NCBI GenBank assembly: GCA_947378965.1
Contig: CANCMG010000025.1
Location: forward strand, 1 to 46,193
Reading direction: 5' to 3'
DNA from: Alcaligenaceae bacterium
GTDB taxonomy: Bacteria > Pseudomonadota > Gammaproteobacteria > Burkholderiales > Burkholderiaceae_B
DNA length: 46,193 nucleotides
Shown here: piece by piece, positions 40,383 through 45,484 of the stretch
Numbering within the stretch: position 1 is the first letter of the stretch
How the letters are laid out: every line of letters begins with the position of its first letter
Notes under the pieces: generated by a model
The model's database searches: none
What the model saw: the letters and a program-made list of their open reading frames with translations, nothing else
Told to the model about the DNA's origin: nothing
Translations under genes and position numbers: made by a program

Positions 40383-41369
40383 TTGATAGATTCAATAGAA
40401 AATTTGCAACTGAAGCAAGATTCAGAGGGTCGATGGCATGTTGTTCTAGGTGATCTGGTGTTTACGGCAACAGAATTTTTAGATCACATATCCAATCATT
40501 CCTTTCAATTAAGTGAAGCAAAGAATCGAGCTTTAAGTGCTTTAGAAAAAGAGGCCATGTTTCTTTTTGTAAACGGTGGCGATTACGCTATTTACAACCG
40601 GCTCTTACGAAATAGAGAAGTTCATCCCTTAAATCGCAAGCTTTTAAAAAAGACGCTTGTGCGGATTGCGGCAATGCAATCTGGGATTAATAAGTTACCG
40701 GACTATAGTGGTAGCGTGTACCGCGTGGCTTCCGTTGTCGACGGTTTAGCATCAACCTATAACGGAATCGGAGAAGGAAGTTTGAGCGTTGGTGCGACGA
40801 CTACGACCGATACCTTCGTTGGTGCCTGTCGTTTTGCCTTTGTGGTCGTTGAACATGCACCAGTTGTGATTTGGACAGTGATAAAAACACGTCATGCGAA
40901 GGTTCAACCCGCTTGCCGTGAAGAAGTGACTTTTCCGTTGGGATCCTCGCTTAAGTTTACAAATATCAAACAATTGGATCCTAAGAAAATCACGGGGCAC
41001 ATTGACCCTGATGCCGAGTTGAAGTGGGTTCAAATTGGTTCTAAGCTTCGTCCATTCATTGGATTAAATCTTCATTACGGCGACGAAAGATTGCCAGATT
41101 TTTATTTTCTTTCTGAGCCACGTCAATTTAGACGCGTCGCGTTGGGTCTAGTCACATATTTTTTAGAACGCTCAAATTTATTCTACAAAAAATACGCGCT
41201 GAAAGAACTTGAACACATTAAGCGGTTACCTGCTGAAAGACGATTTGAAGAAATGTGGACGAGTCGACTAGACTCAGCGAGTCAGGCCGGCAAACTACCA
41301 GACATTATTTATTTGGCAGAGGCAGAAGAGATGCCGAACGCAGGTGTAGACATCAATATAAAGCTGTAA
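40383..41369 (+). CDS. protein with an ADP-ribosyltransferase-like domain (tentative)
   Basis: I do not recognise a named family for the whole 328-residue protein. Residues about 50-200 follow the plan of ADP-ribosyltransferase exoenzymes. An N-terminal helix (GDYAIYNRLLRN) comes first. Then YSGSVYR gives a possible NAD-binding Arg114; GATTTTDT (137-144) sits where the STS motif should be; REEVTFPLGSSLKF (179-192) sits where ExE-V-L-P-G is expected, with Glu181 as the candidate catalytic residue. The first Glu of ExE is Arg here, so activity is uncertain. The TTG at 40383 follows AGGAG by 5 bases. The gene is visibly AT-richer than those upstream, which suggests transfer. No antitoxin-like neighbour is present. 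Confidence 0.6.
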   Translation: MIDSIENLQLKQDSEGRWHVVLGDLVFTATEFLDHISNHSFQLSEAKNRALSALEKEAMFLFVNGGDYAIYNRLLRNREVHPLNRKLLKKTLVRIAAMQSGINKLPDYSGSVYRVASVVDGLASTYNGIGEGSLSVGATTTTDTFVGACRFAFVVVEHAPVVIWTVIKTRHAKVQPACREEVTFPLGSSLKFTNIKQLDPKKITGHIDPDAELKWVQIGSKLRPFIGLNLHYGDERLPDFYFLSEPRQFRRVALGLVTYFLERSNLFYKKYALKELEHIKRLPAERRFEEMWTSRLDSASQAGKLPDIIYLAEAEEMPNAGVDINIKL

Positions 41370-42656: not shown

Positions 42657-42809
42657 ATGAACAATGAGCTTGATGAAGTGGTTGTACTGGACGTCTCTGA
42701 TGATGCGCTGGAGTTGGCTGCGGGTAGTGCGCAGGGAGGGCTTGGCTCTTTCATTCGTCGTGGCTATACCTTCGGGTGTTGGTGTTCACGAGAAGTCTCT
42801 GAGCAGTAA
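42657..42809 (+). CDS. putative RiPP precursor peptide 1
   Basis: A 50-residue peptide. The leader half contains EVVVLDVSDDALELAAG; the C-terminal half, SAQGGLGSFIRRGYTFGCWC then SREVSEQ, is the presumed core, with two Cys, two Arg, Tyr, Trp and three Ser. The leader is shared almost residue for residue with the second peptide gene at 44045, while the C-terminal parts are unrelated. Conserved leader plus variable core is the RiPP precursor pattern. Leader cleavage may follow AAG. No peptidase or exporter gene is adjacent. It converges on the oxygenase gene with 37 bases between stops. Confidence 0.7.
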   Translation: MNNELDEVVVLDVSDDALELAAGSAQGGLGSFIRRGYTFGCWCSREVSEQ

Positions 42810-42846
42810 ATATTGTCAGAGCTTGAATCACGGCTTCACGAATGGG

Positions 42847-43710
42847 CTAACTTTGTGCAGACTTTTTCGGACGTTTCTCAGCAAAAAGAGTTTTCCCAAG
42901 AAAGGCTTTTACATATGTTGGGAACATCTGCAAAGAGCCCCGTTCAGGCATGAGCTTAGGCGTCTCTAACCATATATTCAAAGAAATAATGGTGCTATAA
43001 CTCATCACTTGATGCCACCAATACGGAGCAAGATACAAAATGCTGCCAGGTTCCATCGTGACATCGTAAAACTTCACCCGACGGGCTTTAGGAAAGCGAT
43101 CGAAATCTGGCTTGAGTGGATTGAAATCTGTGACTCGTGGGTAAGTTGAAAACGCAGAGCGAGGCGATAAATTCGAAAAGCTACTGGGCTCGCTTAGCAA
43201 AAATCTTTTCGGGCCATACAGTTGAATAAAAAAATTGTACTGAGGGTCAAAATGAAGGCCCGTGGTATTGCCGCCAGGGCCGTACCAAAGATCTCTCAGG
43301 CCGGGCCTATCCTTGGGCAACAAGTTATCAAAATGAATGTCTGGCAGTAGCTCAGGAAAAAACTGAGCCACTGGCTGGCTGCCCATATATAGCTTGCGAG
43401 CAGGGTTTGGATGATCAGCTTCAATTTCATTGACGTAATCACTAAAACTCATTTTAGTTTCGTCGTAATACTCTTGAAACAGACCTGTTTTAGAGGTCAT
43501 GACATGGATGATTTTTGAGCCTATTTTTTGACGCAGAAACTCTGGGCTCCAAGTCGCAAGGCTTGGAAATACTTCATAAGCATTGGTGATCAGTAACGGC
43601 TTCTTGTTTTCGACACAACGAGTGAAAAGATCTTCGCCGCTGTCGACTAATTCTTTAAGACTGATCTGAGGTAGGGGCTCAGCGTATAGATTCAAATCGC
43701 AATTATCCAT
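42847..43710 (-). CDS. JmjC/cupin_8-type Fe(II)/2-oxoglutarate-dependent oxygenase
   Basis: A 287-residue double-stranded beta-helix protein. The metal triad is visible: His153 and Asp155 in TTGLHFDPQYNFF, and the distal His233 in APYWWHQVMSYS. A lysine follows the HxD at KRFLLSEP (about 168), where 2-oxoglutarate is usually bound in this group. The family includes peptide and protein hydroxylases (FIH-like) that act on side chains. I start at the ATG at 43710; a GTG at 43740 is in frame. It sits between two precursor-like peptide genes, convergent with one and divergent from the other, so the peptides are candidate substrates. Confidence 0.88.
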   Translation of the reverse strand: MDNCDLNLYAEPLPQISLKELVDSGEDLFTRCVENKKPLLITNAYEVFPSLATWSPEFLRQKIGSKIIHVMTSKTGLFQEYYDETKMSFSDYVNEIEADHPNPARKLYMGSQPVAQFFPELLPDIHFDNLLPKDRPGLRDLWYGPGGNTTGLHFDPQYNFFIQLYGPKRFLLSEPSSFSNLSPRSAFSTYPRVTDFNPLKPDFDRFPKARRVKFYDVTMEPGSILYLAPYWWHQVMSYSTIISLNIWLETPKLMPERGSLQMFPTYVKAFLGKTLFAEKRPKKSAQS

Positions 43711-43958
43711 CTTCTTTTCTTTACAAAAACGATTAATCACTTTTCTTCATAAGATGAGCGACGGCGCCACATCGTTGATCGTTTGGGATCCCCACTTTGC
43801 CTCAAGCTCAATCTTGGCTTTACACTGAGACAAGTATAGTGCAGCCCAAAGTCTGAGAGTATGTCAAGGTCATGAGGTGGCCCGAGATTGAGACATATTA
43901 AGAGCTTTGCGAAATCTTCCAAGCGAGACGGCTTGAGCCAGGGCTAGGATTCACTGAG

Positions 43959-43987
43959 TTAAATGCGCAATATTTCGAGTCTATACT
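43959..43987 (+). promoter_or_regulatory. promoter of peptide gene 2; content of the 43711-44044 gap
   Basis: TATACT (43982-43987) is a strong -10 match; TTAAAT (43959-43964) lies 17 bases upstream as a poor -35. The start would be about 43994, roughly 50 bases before the GTG of peptide 2. The rest of this 334-base divergent gap holds no credible gene. A 61-codon frame on the minus strand (43737-43922) has no SD and no recognisable domain. Confidence 0.45.
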
Positions 43988-44044
43988 TTGTTGATCCGCA
44001 ACCCAAATAAAACTGTGCGCGGGCGTACAACCTAGGAGTCGGCT

Positions 44045-44239
44045 GTGAATACTGAGCATGAGCAAGTTGTAGTACTCGAAGTCTCTGATGAGGCTCTAGA
44101 GTTGGCTGCGGGTGGTGTGCAGGGTCGTTCTGAGCCGCCTGAGCCGCCCCGTAGTTTTGGCGCAGGCTGGGCCGCGGGTCTGCAGACTTATGCGAGCCAG
44201 CCTTGGCAGTATCTCCATTGTCTGCGTCATTCCTGTTAG
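44045..44239 (+). CDS. putative RiPP precursor peptide 2
   Basis: A 64-residue peptide starting at GTG with AGGAG 6 bases upstream. The leader EQVVVLEVSDEALELAAG matches peptide 1 at 19 of the first 27 positions. The C-terminal part is different: GVQGRSEPPEPPRSFGAGWA, then AGLQTYASQPWQYLHCLR and HSC. It is rich in Pro, Trp and Tyr and has two Cys at the end. AAGG at the leader end resembles double-Gly processing sites, but no C39 peptidase is in the window. It lies 75 bases upstream of nnrS on the same strand. Confidence 0.7.
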   Translation: MNTEHEQVVVLEVSDEALELAAGGVQGRSEPPEPPRSFGAGWAAGLQTYASQPWQYLHCLRHSC

Positions 44240-44314
44240 CCTCTGCTGGGTGGTCACCCATGCTCATTCGGGCGTGTGGTCTAACATCGTAGTGATAGTA
44301 GGTAGGGTGCCCTC

Positions 44315-45484
44315 ATGGCGACATTGAATGTGATTCAGCACCCACTCGACCGAAAGGCGGCTCACTTCGCACTATGGCGTCTGGCCTTTCGTCCCTTTTA
44401 CCTACTCGCCAGCGCATTTGCCGCCGTTTCGGTTTTGCTATGGGGCCTGCAGTTCAGTGGCTATCTGCCCTTTGCTTATTTGCAGGGGCCCTTGTGGCAT
44501 GCGCATGAGATGCTGTTCGGGTTTGTGCTGGCGGTGTTGGCAGGTTTTTTGCTCACGGCTGGCCAGAACTGGTCGGGGCAGCCCACGCCGAAAGGTGTAT
44601 ACCTCGCCGCGTTGGCGGGCTTGTGGGTAGCAGGCAGGGTATTGGTGCTGTTACCTTGGGGGTGGCTGGCCGCCGTTGTGAATGTAGCCTTTCCACTGGC
44701 CGTGGCAACTGCACTTGCCGTTCCGCTTTACCGAGCGCGTAATCAACGCAACTACTTCTTTGTCGGGTTACTGGTCTTGTTGGCGTGCGCTCAACTGGTG
44801 GTGCATCTAAACGCCCTTGGGACTCTGCGCATACCGAACTGGGCTGGGATTGCGCTAGGCTTGAATGTGATGCTGGTGGTACTCAGTGTGATGGCGGGAA
44901 GGGTGATACCGATGTTCACCAACAATGCCATTCCTAAGGCAAAGGCCGTACGTCACCCCTGGGTCGAAAAGCTAGCCTTGGCCCTGGTCTTGCTAATCAC
45001 CATTGCAGATGGGTTGCAAATCTCGGGAGCGTGGTTTGCGTTGATGGCCGTTCTGGCGATGCTGGCGCATCTTGCGCGCCTATGGCTGTGGCAGCCCTGG
45101 AAGACGCTGAAGACTCCGCTAGTTTGGGTGCTGCATCTTGCCTATGCTTGGGTACCTCTTTACTTGCTGTTTCGTGCCATGGCTGCGATGGACTGGGTTT
45201 CGGCCTCAGTCGCCTATCACGCGCTCACCACAGGAGCTATCGGTGGCATGATCATTGGCATGATGACGCGCACGGCCATGGGTCATACCGGAAGAAAACT
45301 CTTTGCAGGAAAGACAGAGGTAGCCTGTTATCTTTTGGTGGCGTTTGCCGCTGCGGTGCGGGTCTTCGTTCCGCTGTTCAACCCAGCGCTGGTGGGTGAT
45401 GCAGTTTTTGTCTCTGCGGTGCTGTGGTCGTCTGGGTTTGCCTTGTATGCCTTTCGGTATTGGCGCATTCTCAGCCGGCAATAA
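44315..45484 (+). CDS. nnrS: NnrS family membrane protein
   Basis: A 389-residue polytopic inner-membrane protein. PLWHAHEMLFGFVLAVLAGF, LTAGQNWSG and the late ITTGAIGGMIIGMMTRTAMG-like block (here ALTTGAIGGMIIGMMTR) are family hallmarks; about 12 hydrophobic segments are visible. NnrS is a heme- and copper-containing protein linked to resistance to nitric oxide and nitrosative stress, usually in NnrR/FNR-type regulons. No denitrification genes are next to it here. The ATG at 44315 follows AGGG. It may be cotranscribed with peptide gene 2. Confidence 0.95.
   Translation: MATLNVIQHPLDRKAAHFALWRLAFRPFYLLASAFAAVSVLLWGLQFSGYLPFAYLQGPLWHAHEMLFGFVLAVLAGFLLTAGQNWSGQPTPKGVYLAALAGLWVAGRVLVLLPWGWLAAVVNVAFPLAVATALAVPLYRARNQRNYFFVGLLVLLACAQLVVHLNALGTLRIPNWAGIALGLNVMLVVLSVMAGRVIPMFTNNAIPKAKAVRHPWVEKLALALVLLITIADGLQISGAWFALMAVLAMLAHLARLWLWQPWKTLKTPLVWVLHLAYAWVPLYLLFRAMAAMDWVSASVAYHALTTGAIGGMIIGMMTRTAMGHTGRKLFAGKTEVACYLLVAFAAAVRVFVPLFNPALVGDAVFVSAVLWSSGFALYAFRYWRILSRQ

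Follow-up and report, generated by a model that had tools for sequence, protein, structure and literature searches.

Two short open reading frames in a stretch of DNA from an Alcaligenaceae bacterium begin with similar residues and end in unrelated ones, and the question that this locus raises is what kind of peptides they encode and which enzyme might act on them. The stretch, referred to below as the window, comprises 46,193 nucleotides and represents contig C25 of a genome of the genus Zwartia (Alcaligenaceae; 4.5 Mb, 189 contigs, 96% complete).

Two window genes with a common leader and unrelated cores

The features of the locus are the following:

42657..42809, + strand: precursor peptide gene 1, ATG start, 50 amino acids, leader followed by core LGSFIRRGYTFGCWCSREVSEQ
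42657..42740, + strand: leader of precursor 1, 28 codons, profile E 3.2e-18 (profile built partly from this same leader)
42847..43740, - strand: Cupin_8/JmjC-like protein between both precursors, PF13621 E 1.2e-37
44034..44038, + strand: probable ribosome-binding site of precursor 2, AGGAG, assigned by eye
44045..44239, + strand: precursor peptide gene 2, GTG start, 64 amino acids, leader followed by a long core ending in HCLRHSC and a stop codon
44045..44128, + strand: leader of precursor 2, 28 codons, profile E 1.7e-16 (profile built partly from this same leader)
44234..44265, + strand: diverged copy of the 3' flank at precursor 2, with Cys codon TGT, stop codon TAG and the following bases

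The positions and lengths of both genes agreed with the original prediction, as did the identity of 19 of the first 27 residues (both starts counted as Met) and, judged by eye, the lack of any similarity between the tails. The core of peptide 2 is unusually long and rich in proline, and its AGGAG motif sits in an upstream stretch which by eye resembles that of other precursor genes.

Orthologs of both genes are present in another Zwartia genome, G004. The ortholog of precursor 1 (L048:10187-10339) has a similar core and differs by 15 synonymous and 5 non-synonymous changes among 50 codons, of which 7 and 3, respectively, fall in the core. For precursor 2 (ortholog at L048:8778-8972), 10 synonymous changes and 1 non-synonymous change were counted among the 36 codons of the core. 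G004 also retains the gene order precursor 1 - cupin - precursor 2, and its cupin is 97% identical. A gene for a 328-residue protein at 40383-41369 (+) also keeps its place in the gene order (L048:11625-12623); neither Pfam nor NCBIfam gave a match to this protein at E up to 1. Directly 3' of precursor 2, the window contains an NnrS-like gene (44315-45484, +). Beyond precursor 2 of G004, no NnrS-like frame occurs before the next conserved genes, which indicates gain or loss of this gene between the two genomes.

The conserved order would fit a unit of the two peptides and the Cupin_8/JmjC protein, in which the cupin would hydroxylate the cores, with or without the lanthionine synthetase LanM described below. 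Oxygenases tailor some lanthipeptides. However, eight of the ten cupin matches (E up to 1e-20) in 6 of 32 Zwartia genomes are located on contigs that have no leader match, including one on contig C35 of the window's own genome, and genome G023 has the cupin and neither leader nor LanM. We consider such a unit unlikely, and with eight of ten matches on leader-free contigs, a function of the cupin as general tailoring enzyme is unsupported. The protein might be a tailoring enzyme, but is more likely just a neighbor.

A leader family in Zwartia

With peptide 2 alone as query against its own genome, we obtained peptide 1 at E 6.6e-5 and two further leaders, C33:12164-12244 at 8.8e-5 and C70:1638-1715 at 0.017, each followed by another short tail, so that the genome has four precursors, distributed over three contigs. 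A profile built from their leaders recovered all four at E 1.7e-16 to 3.2e-18, values that are low in part by construction, and the next match in this genome was at 0.6. As had been suggested with the original prediction, the leader was then searched for in other genomes, namely in 101 genomes, 32 of the genus Zwartia and 69 others. It was present in 18 of the 32 genus genomes, own genome included, with 85 places in total at E below 1e-5. Since neither the gap to 0.6 nor the 81 matches in other Zwartia genomes are due to construction, the leader family is not a product of chance. The best match among the 69 other genomes had an E value of 0.01 and lay inside a 930-residue frame. Neither of the two outcomes named in the original prediction as speaking against it was observed: the leader occurs in short frames, not within an already known family of longer proteins, and many genomes combine it with variable C-termini.

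The carriers include two described isolates, Zwartia hollandica (G005) and Zwartia vadi (G012), and some genomes have tandem arrays, with ten precursors in about 2.8 kb in G030. A leader pattern scan of one genome per species over 84,980 species gave 45 loci. Loci were also returned from genomes G101, G102 and G103, and the leader need not be strictly confined to one genus. Leader loci L097, L098, L099, L102, L103 and related ones derive from MAGs publicly labelled 'Bordetella parapertussis' that appear to be Zwartia genomes; this and other labels on MAGs equal to G027, G030 and G031 look wrong. Carriage by phages or plasmids was rejected after searches of viral contigs with the leader profile and of plasmid and phage collections with one precursor, neither of which gave a match. 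When 16 of the 82 precursors described below were compared with Pfam and NCBIfam, none reached the cut-off of any model, and Nif11 of NCBIfam was not matched by any of the 16 at E up to 1, while a Nostoc control did match.

Core variability and composition

For an analysis of the cores, we searched 142 loci and compiled 82 distinct precursors with a leader profile E of at most 1e-3 and a stop codon inside the locus. The match had to begin by profile position 6 and to reach position 20, identical DNA was counted once, and the set consists of complete precursors, those that are partial or run off a contig being excluded. In 1,500 random pairs from 80 precursors, leader residues 1-24 showed a mean identity of 76%, and the cores one of 17% compared to 15% for shuffled cores. 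These values strongly support the original reading of the peptides as RiPP precursors with a shared leader and varying cores. Clustering at 60% identity placed the 82 cores in 71 clusters, 63 of them with a single member. All eight multi-member clusters span different genomes, showing that some cores are kept, and both window peptides belong to such clusters. The most widely shared core, ending in S-W-[LF]-x-[LF]-Q-T-[HY]-C-V, was found at five places in four genomes (L040, L046, L047, L054, L058).

Cys and Ser/Thr are present in 82 of 82 cores, including those of both window peptides. As the precursors were selected by the leader alone, this composition is not built into the set. When the same DNA was read in the five other frames, Cys occurred in 27 to 40 of 82, and at the Cys rate of the larger open reading frames of the window 10.9 of 82 cores would be expected to contain it. 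Cys was found within the last four residues of 71 cores and as the C-terminal residue of 45.

A LanM enzyme co-occurs with the leader

Five precursor neighborhoods encode a LanM, a protein of 1,073-1,074 residues with DUF4135 and LANC_like domains in Pfam. The own genome of the window encodes one LanM (C155:2516-5737), which is full-length and matches DUF4135 (PF13575) and LANC_like (PF05147) far above cut-off and TIGR03897 of NCBIfam with 743 bits (cut-off 304). This is the sole DUF4135 match of the genome, and the absence of a lanthionine synthetase from the window itself was thus correctly noted at the outset. No precursor of this genome lies near lanM, the window being C25 and lanM located on C155.

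LanM was detected in 16 of the 32 Zwartia genomes, in one of them (G020) as pieces. The leader is present in 15 of 16 LanM-positive and in 3 of 16 LanM-negative genomes (Fisher p 4e-5, a value that is only a guide because the genomes share ancestry). The LanM-positive genome lacking a leader match is G020, which is 65% complete. The LanM-negative genomes with leaders are the draft assemblies G004 (11 places), G011 (5) and G024 (1). Among four genomes reached via leader loci, G103 and G104 have a LanM, with the match of G104 being the same as that of G003, and the drafts G101 and G102 gave no LanM match. In G103, a leader stretch is located at the start of the contig numbered 135 (L139). Outside the genus, LanM was found in 4 of 368 other genomes of the class (E up to 1e-30), with at most 33% identity.

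The leader is also physically linked to lanM, occurring within 5 kb of a LanM match in 11 of the 16 LanM-positive genomes. Random placement in a 3.3-Mb genome (2,000 trials) gave a mean of 0.22 and a maximum of 2 genomes. At the same time, 66 of the 85 leaders lie outside this 5-kb distance. The gene content around lanM differs between genomes, some of which have a neighborhood in common.

The Zwartia LanM proteins carry a CCG zinc motif

The alignment of 14 full-length genus LanM proteins, from which the cut copies of G019 and G020 were left out, revealed a CCG zinc motif with Cys as third ligand (WCHG...TLCCG) in all 14. It is also present in both LanM proteins of G103; the second one (L176:352-3408) is a diverged CCG-type enzyme about 30% identical to the own LanM. 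LicM2 and CylM have CHG, i.e., His, at the same position of the alignment. In excerpts of PMC10783134 and PMC12328550, the CCG motif is tied to the ProcM group and proposed to aid substrate tolerance.

We calculated a tree of 30 LanM proteins, comprising 16 of the genus and G103, ten chosen from plasmid records and four from the class search. With a support of 100/100, the tree separates the CCG enzymes and two cyanobacterial ones with a degenerate site from the six CHG enzymes. The LanM proteins of Zwartia and G103 form one group, whose exact sister is left uncertain by long branches.

From gene content and relationships of this kind, we conclude that the two window genes very probably encode precursors (LanA) of class II lanthipeptides that are modified in trans by the LanM of C155, in the manner of the prochlorosins. 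The 28-residue leader would serve as the handle for this one enzyme encoded on another contig (C155:2516-5737). LanM would dehydrate Ser and Thr residues of any core joined to this leader and form thioether rings with the Cys residues of that core, and the leader would presumably be cut near GG. If LanM indeed acts on any attached core, one substrate-tolerant enzyme could serve several to many scattered precursors, as ProcM does for the prochlorosins. Modification of the two window peptides, ring formation and tolerance of the enzyme are inferred here.

A constant 3' flank follows many of the cores

A stretch shared by many precursor genes follows the core and reads TGT TAG CTATTGCTGACCGGTAACCC, with slight variation between genes. 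Allowing six mismatches at most, we found it within 250 bases of the leader end in 52 of 82 precursors, and in 0 of 82 regions in every one of 20 rounds of shuffling. In 30 of the 52 genes the flank is in frame with the leader (one third expected, p 3e-4), with 12 of these 30 in-frame flanks preceded by an earlier stop. TGT TAG forms the end of 29 of the 82 precursors. In 18 of the 82 genes the start of the flank coincides with the last Cys codon and the stop codon, and it therefore supplies the terminal Cys and the stop in at least this number.

Ten precursor pairs have leaders and 3' flanks that are both at least 90% identical. Two of the pairs consist of orthologs whose cores are similar; in the remaining eight, core DNA identity is at most 0.52, compared to 0.29-0.47 after shuffling (six of the eight). 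The gene plan is constant-variable-constant, with a leader, a gene-specific core and a 3' flank that gives the last Cys and the stop codon in some genes. A rather speculative extension would be a cassette logic, by which core DNA is replaced wholesale between the constant leader and flank. An in-frame flank would then provide a ring-closing Cys and a stop, making many inserts cyclisable, and the products might be exported or act inside the cell without the usual C39 exporter.

In the own genome of the window, the flank is located at the stop codon of the C33 precursor and further on, past the stop, in that of C70. The flank of peptide 2 is placed exactly at the stop and has diverged at 7 of 27 positions, beyond the six-mismatch limit used for counting. 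The constant 3' flank is absent from peptide 1.

Candidates for leader removal, export and acylation

The C39 peptidase domain PF03412 (E up to 0.001) was detected in 2 of the 32 Zwartia genomes and not in that of the window. The only LanM-positive genome with a match has a weak one in a tandem ABC protein. LanM comes without a C39 peptidase that could account for cleavage of the leader and for export, a point against the scheme proposed above. Subtilases were considered as leader peptidases and rejected: PF00082 is found in 10 of 16 LanM-positive and 9 of 16 LanM-negative genomes (Fisher p 1.0), and the own genome lacks it. Contig C155 encodes the membrane and ATPase parts of an ABC transporter in two overlapping frames (L078:623-1715), which are located about 0.8 kb upstream of lanM.

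A GNAT protein is encoded in 7 of the 32 genus genomes, all of them LanM-positive (p 0.003), and its gene adjoins lanM in 6 of the 7. The own genome has no homolog of this protein at E up to 1e-20. In Zwartia vadi, the GNAT gene (G012:C11:210156-210739; L184, L185) is broken by stop codons, and the adjacent LanM frame is open. An AlphaFold model of the LanM-linked GNAT had a mean pLDDT of 39, too poor for comparison.

The missing C39 peptidase would suit peptides that work without modification or that are remnants of the family undergoing decay in this genome, and so would the presence of only four copies, the stop of the C70 precursor ahead of its flank and the lack of a close flank at either window peptide. 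However, G004 retains both window cores, and most of the changes in them are synonymous (7:3 and 10:1), and the LanM of the own genome is full-length. We regard this explanation as quite improbable.

Comparison with known systems

In the original prediction, the peptides were put forward as a possible new RiPP family and the known large classes were judged to be unsupported. The latter was wrong, as a LanM is encoded in the same genome and both co-occurs and clusters with the leader across the genus. For the same reason, the novelty holds for the precursor family and not for the RiPP class, which is that of the class II lanthipeptides. A new class matured by another enzyme, with LanM co-occurring by shared ancestry only, could draw on the 16 precursors that match no family model and on the 66 leaders distant from lanM, but is highly improbable given the physical linkage in 11 of 16 genomes and the Cys plus Ser/Thr of every core.

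Within class II, the prochlorosins and synechococsins are the nearest parallel for the lanthipeptides proposed here. As described in excerpts of PMC10783134, one CCG LanM (ProcM, SyncM) serves many scattered precursors with one leader and unrelated cores; 9 of 12 strains have the LanM, and some have precursors without it. Zwartia likewise combines a CCG LanM with scattered precursors, a constant leader and unrelated cores, the ProcM sequence itself lying outside the comparison. In contrast, the Zwartia leader has 28 residues and no Nif11 match, whereas the same excerpts describe a 60-residue Nif11-type leader for the prochlorosins. Moreover, no C39 peptidase-transporter accompanies the Zwartia system, and the host is a betaproteobacterial genus. 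Since the Nif11 leader and the C39 transporter are both lacking, we do not file the Zwartia family under the prochlorosins.

Class II clusters of Nostoc (e.g., NZ_CP046705) encode the LanM that ranked first in the plasmid search, with 33.9% identity and a CCG motif as in Zwartia. Unlike in Zwartia, the leader is of the Nif11 type, and a peptidase-containing ABC transporter is encoded right next to lanM.

Classical double-glycine class II lantibiotics have a short leader with GG. The Zwartia precursors resemble them in the short GG leader and in the Cys and Ser/Thr of the core. They differ in that PF04604 was matched by only 1 of the 16 precursors, below threshold (E 0.096), in having several unrelated cores per enzyme and in their LanM proteins, which are placed in the tree on the side opposite the six CHG enzymes included.

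A LanM combined with a GNAT acyltransferase is known from the selidamides and nostolysamides (excerpts of PMC13060382), and the GNAT of seven Zwartia genomes, a putative acyltransferase, recalls these. In contrast to them, Zwartia has no Nif11 leader, and the GNAT is absent from the own genome.

Significance

Marine cyanobacteria are the best-known source of naturally combinatorial lanthipeptide systems, and the role of the many products is unknown according to the parts of PMC10783134 consulted. Genome mining summarized in a section of a review (PMC12328550) estimated homologous clusters in alpha- and gamma-proteobacteria, and proteobacterial relatives as such are therefore not new. The titles and abstract openings surveyed name no lanthipeptide of Zwartia or the GKS98 cluster, and reports may exist elsewhere; in PMC10535154, which mentions Zwartia, none of six natural-product terms occurs. 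The family described here would represent a comparable combinatorial system in a freshwater betaproteobacterial genus, with a short leader and a distant enzyme. The Zwartia LanM would be another candidate for a promiscuous LanM in peptide engineering, and the family would offer an independent case for asking how and why the cores diversify.
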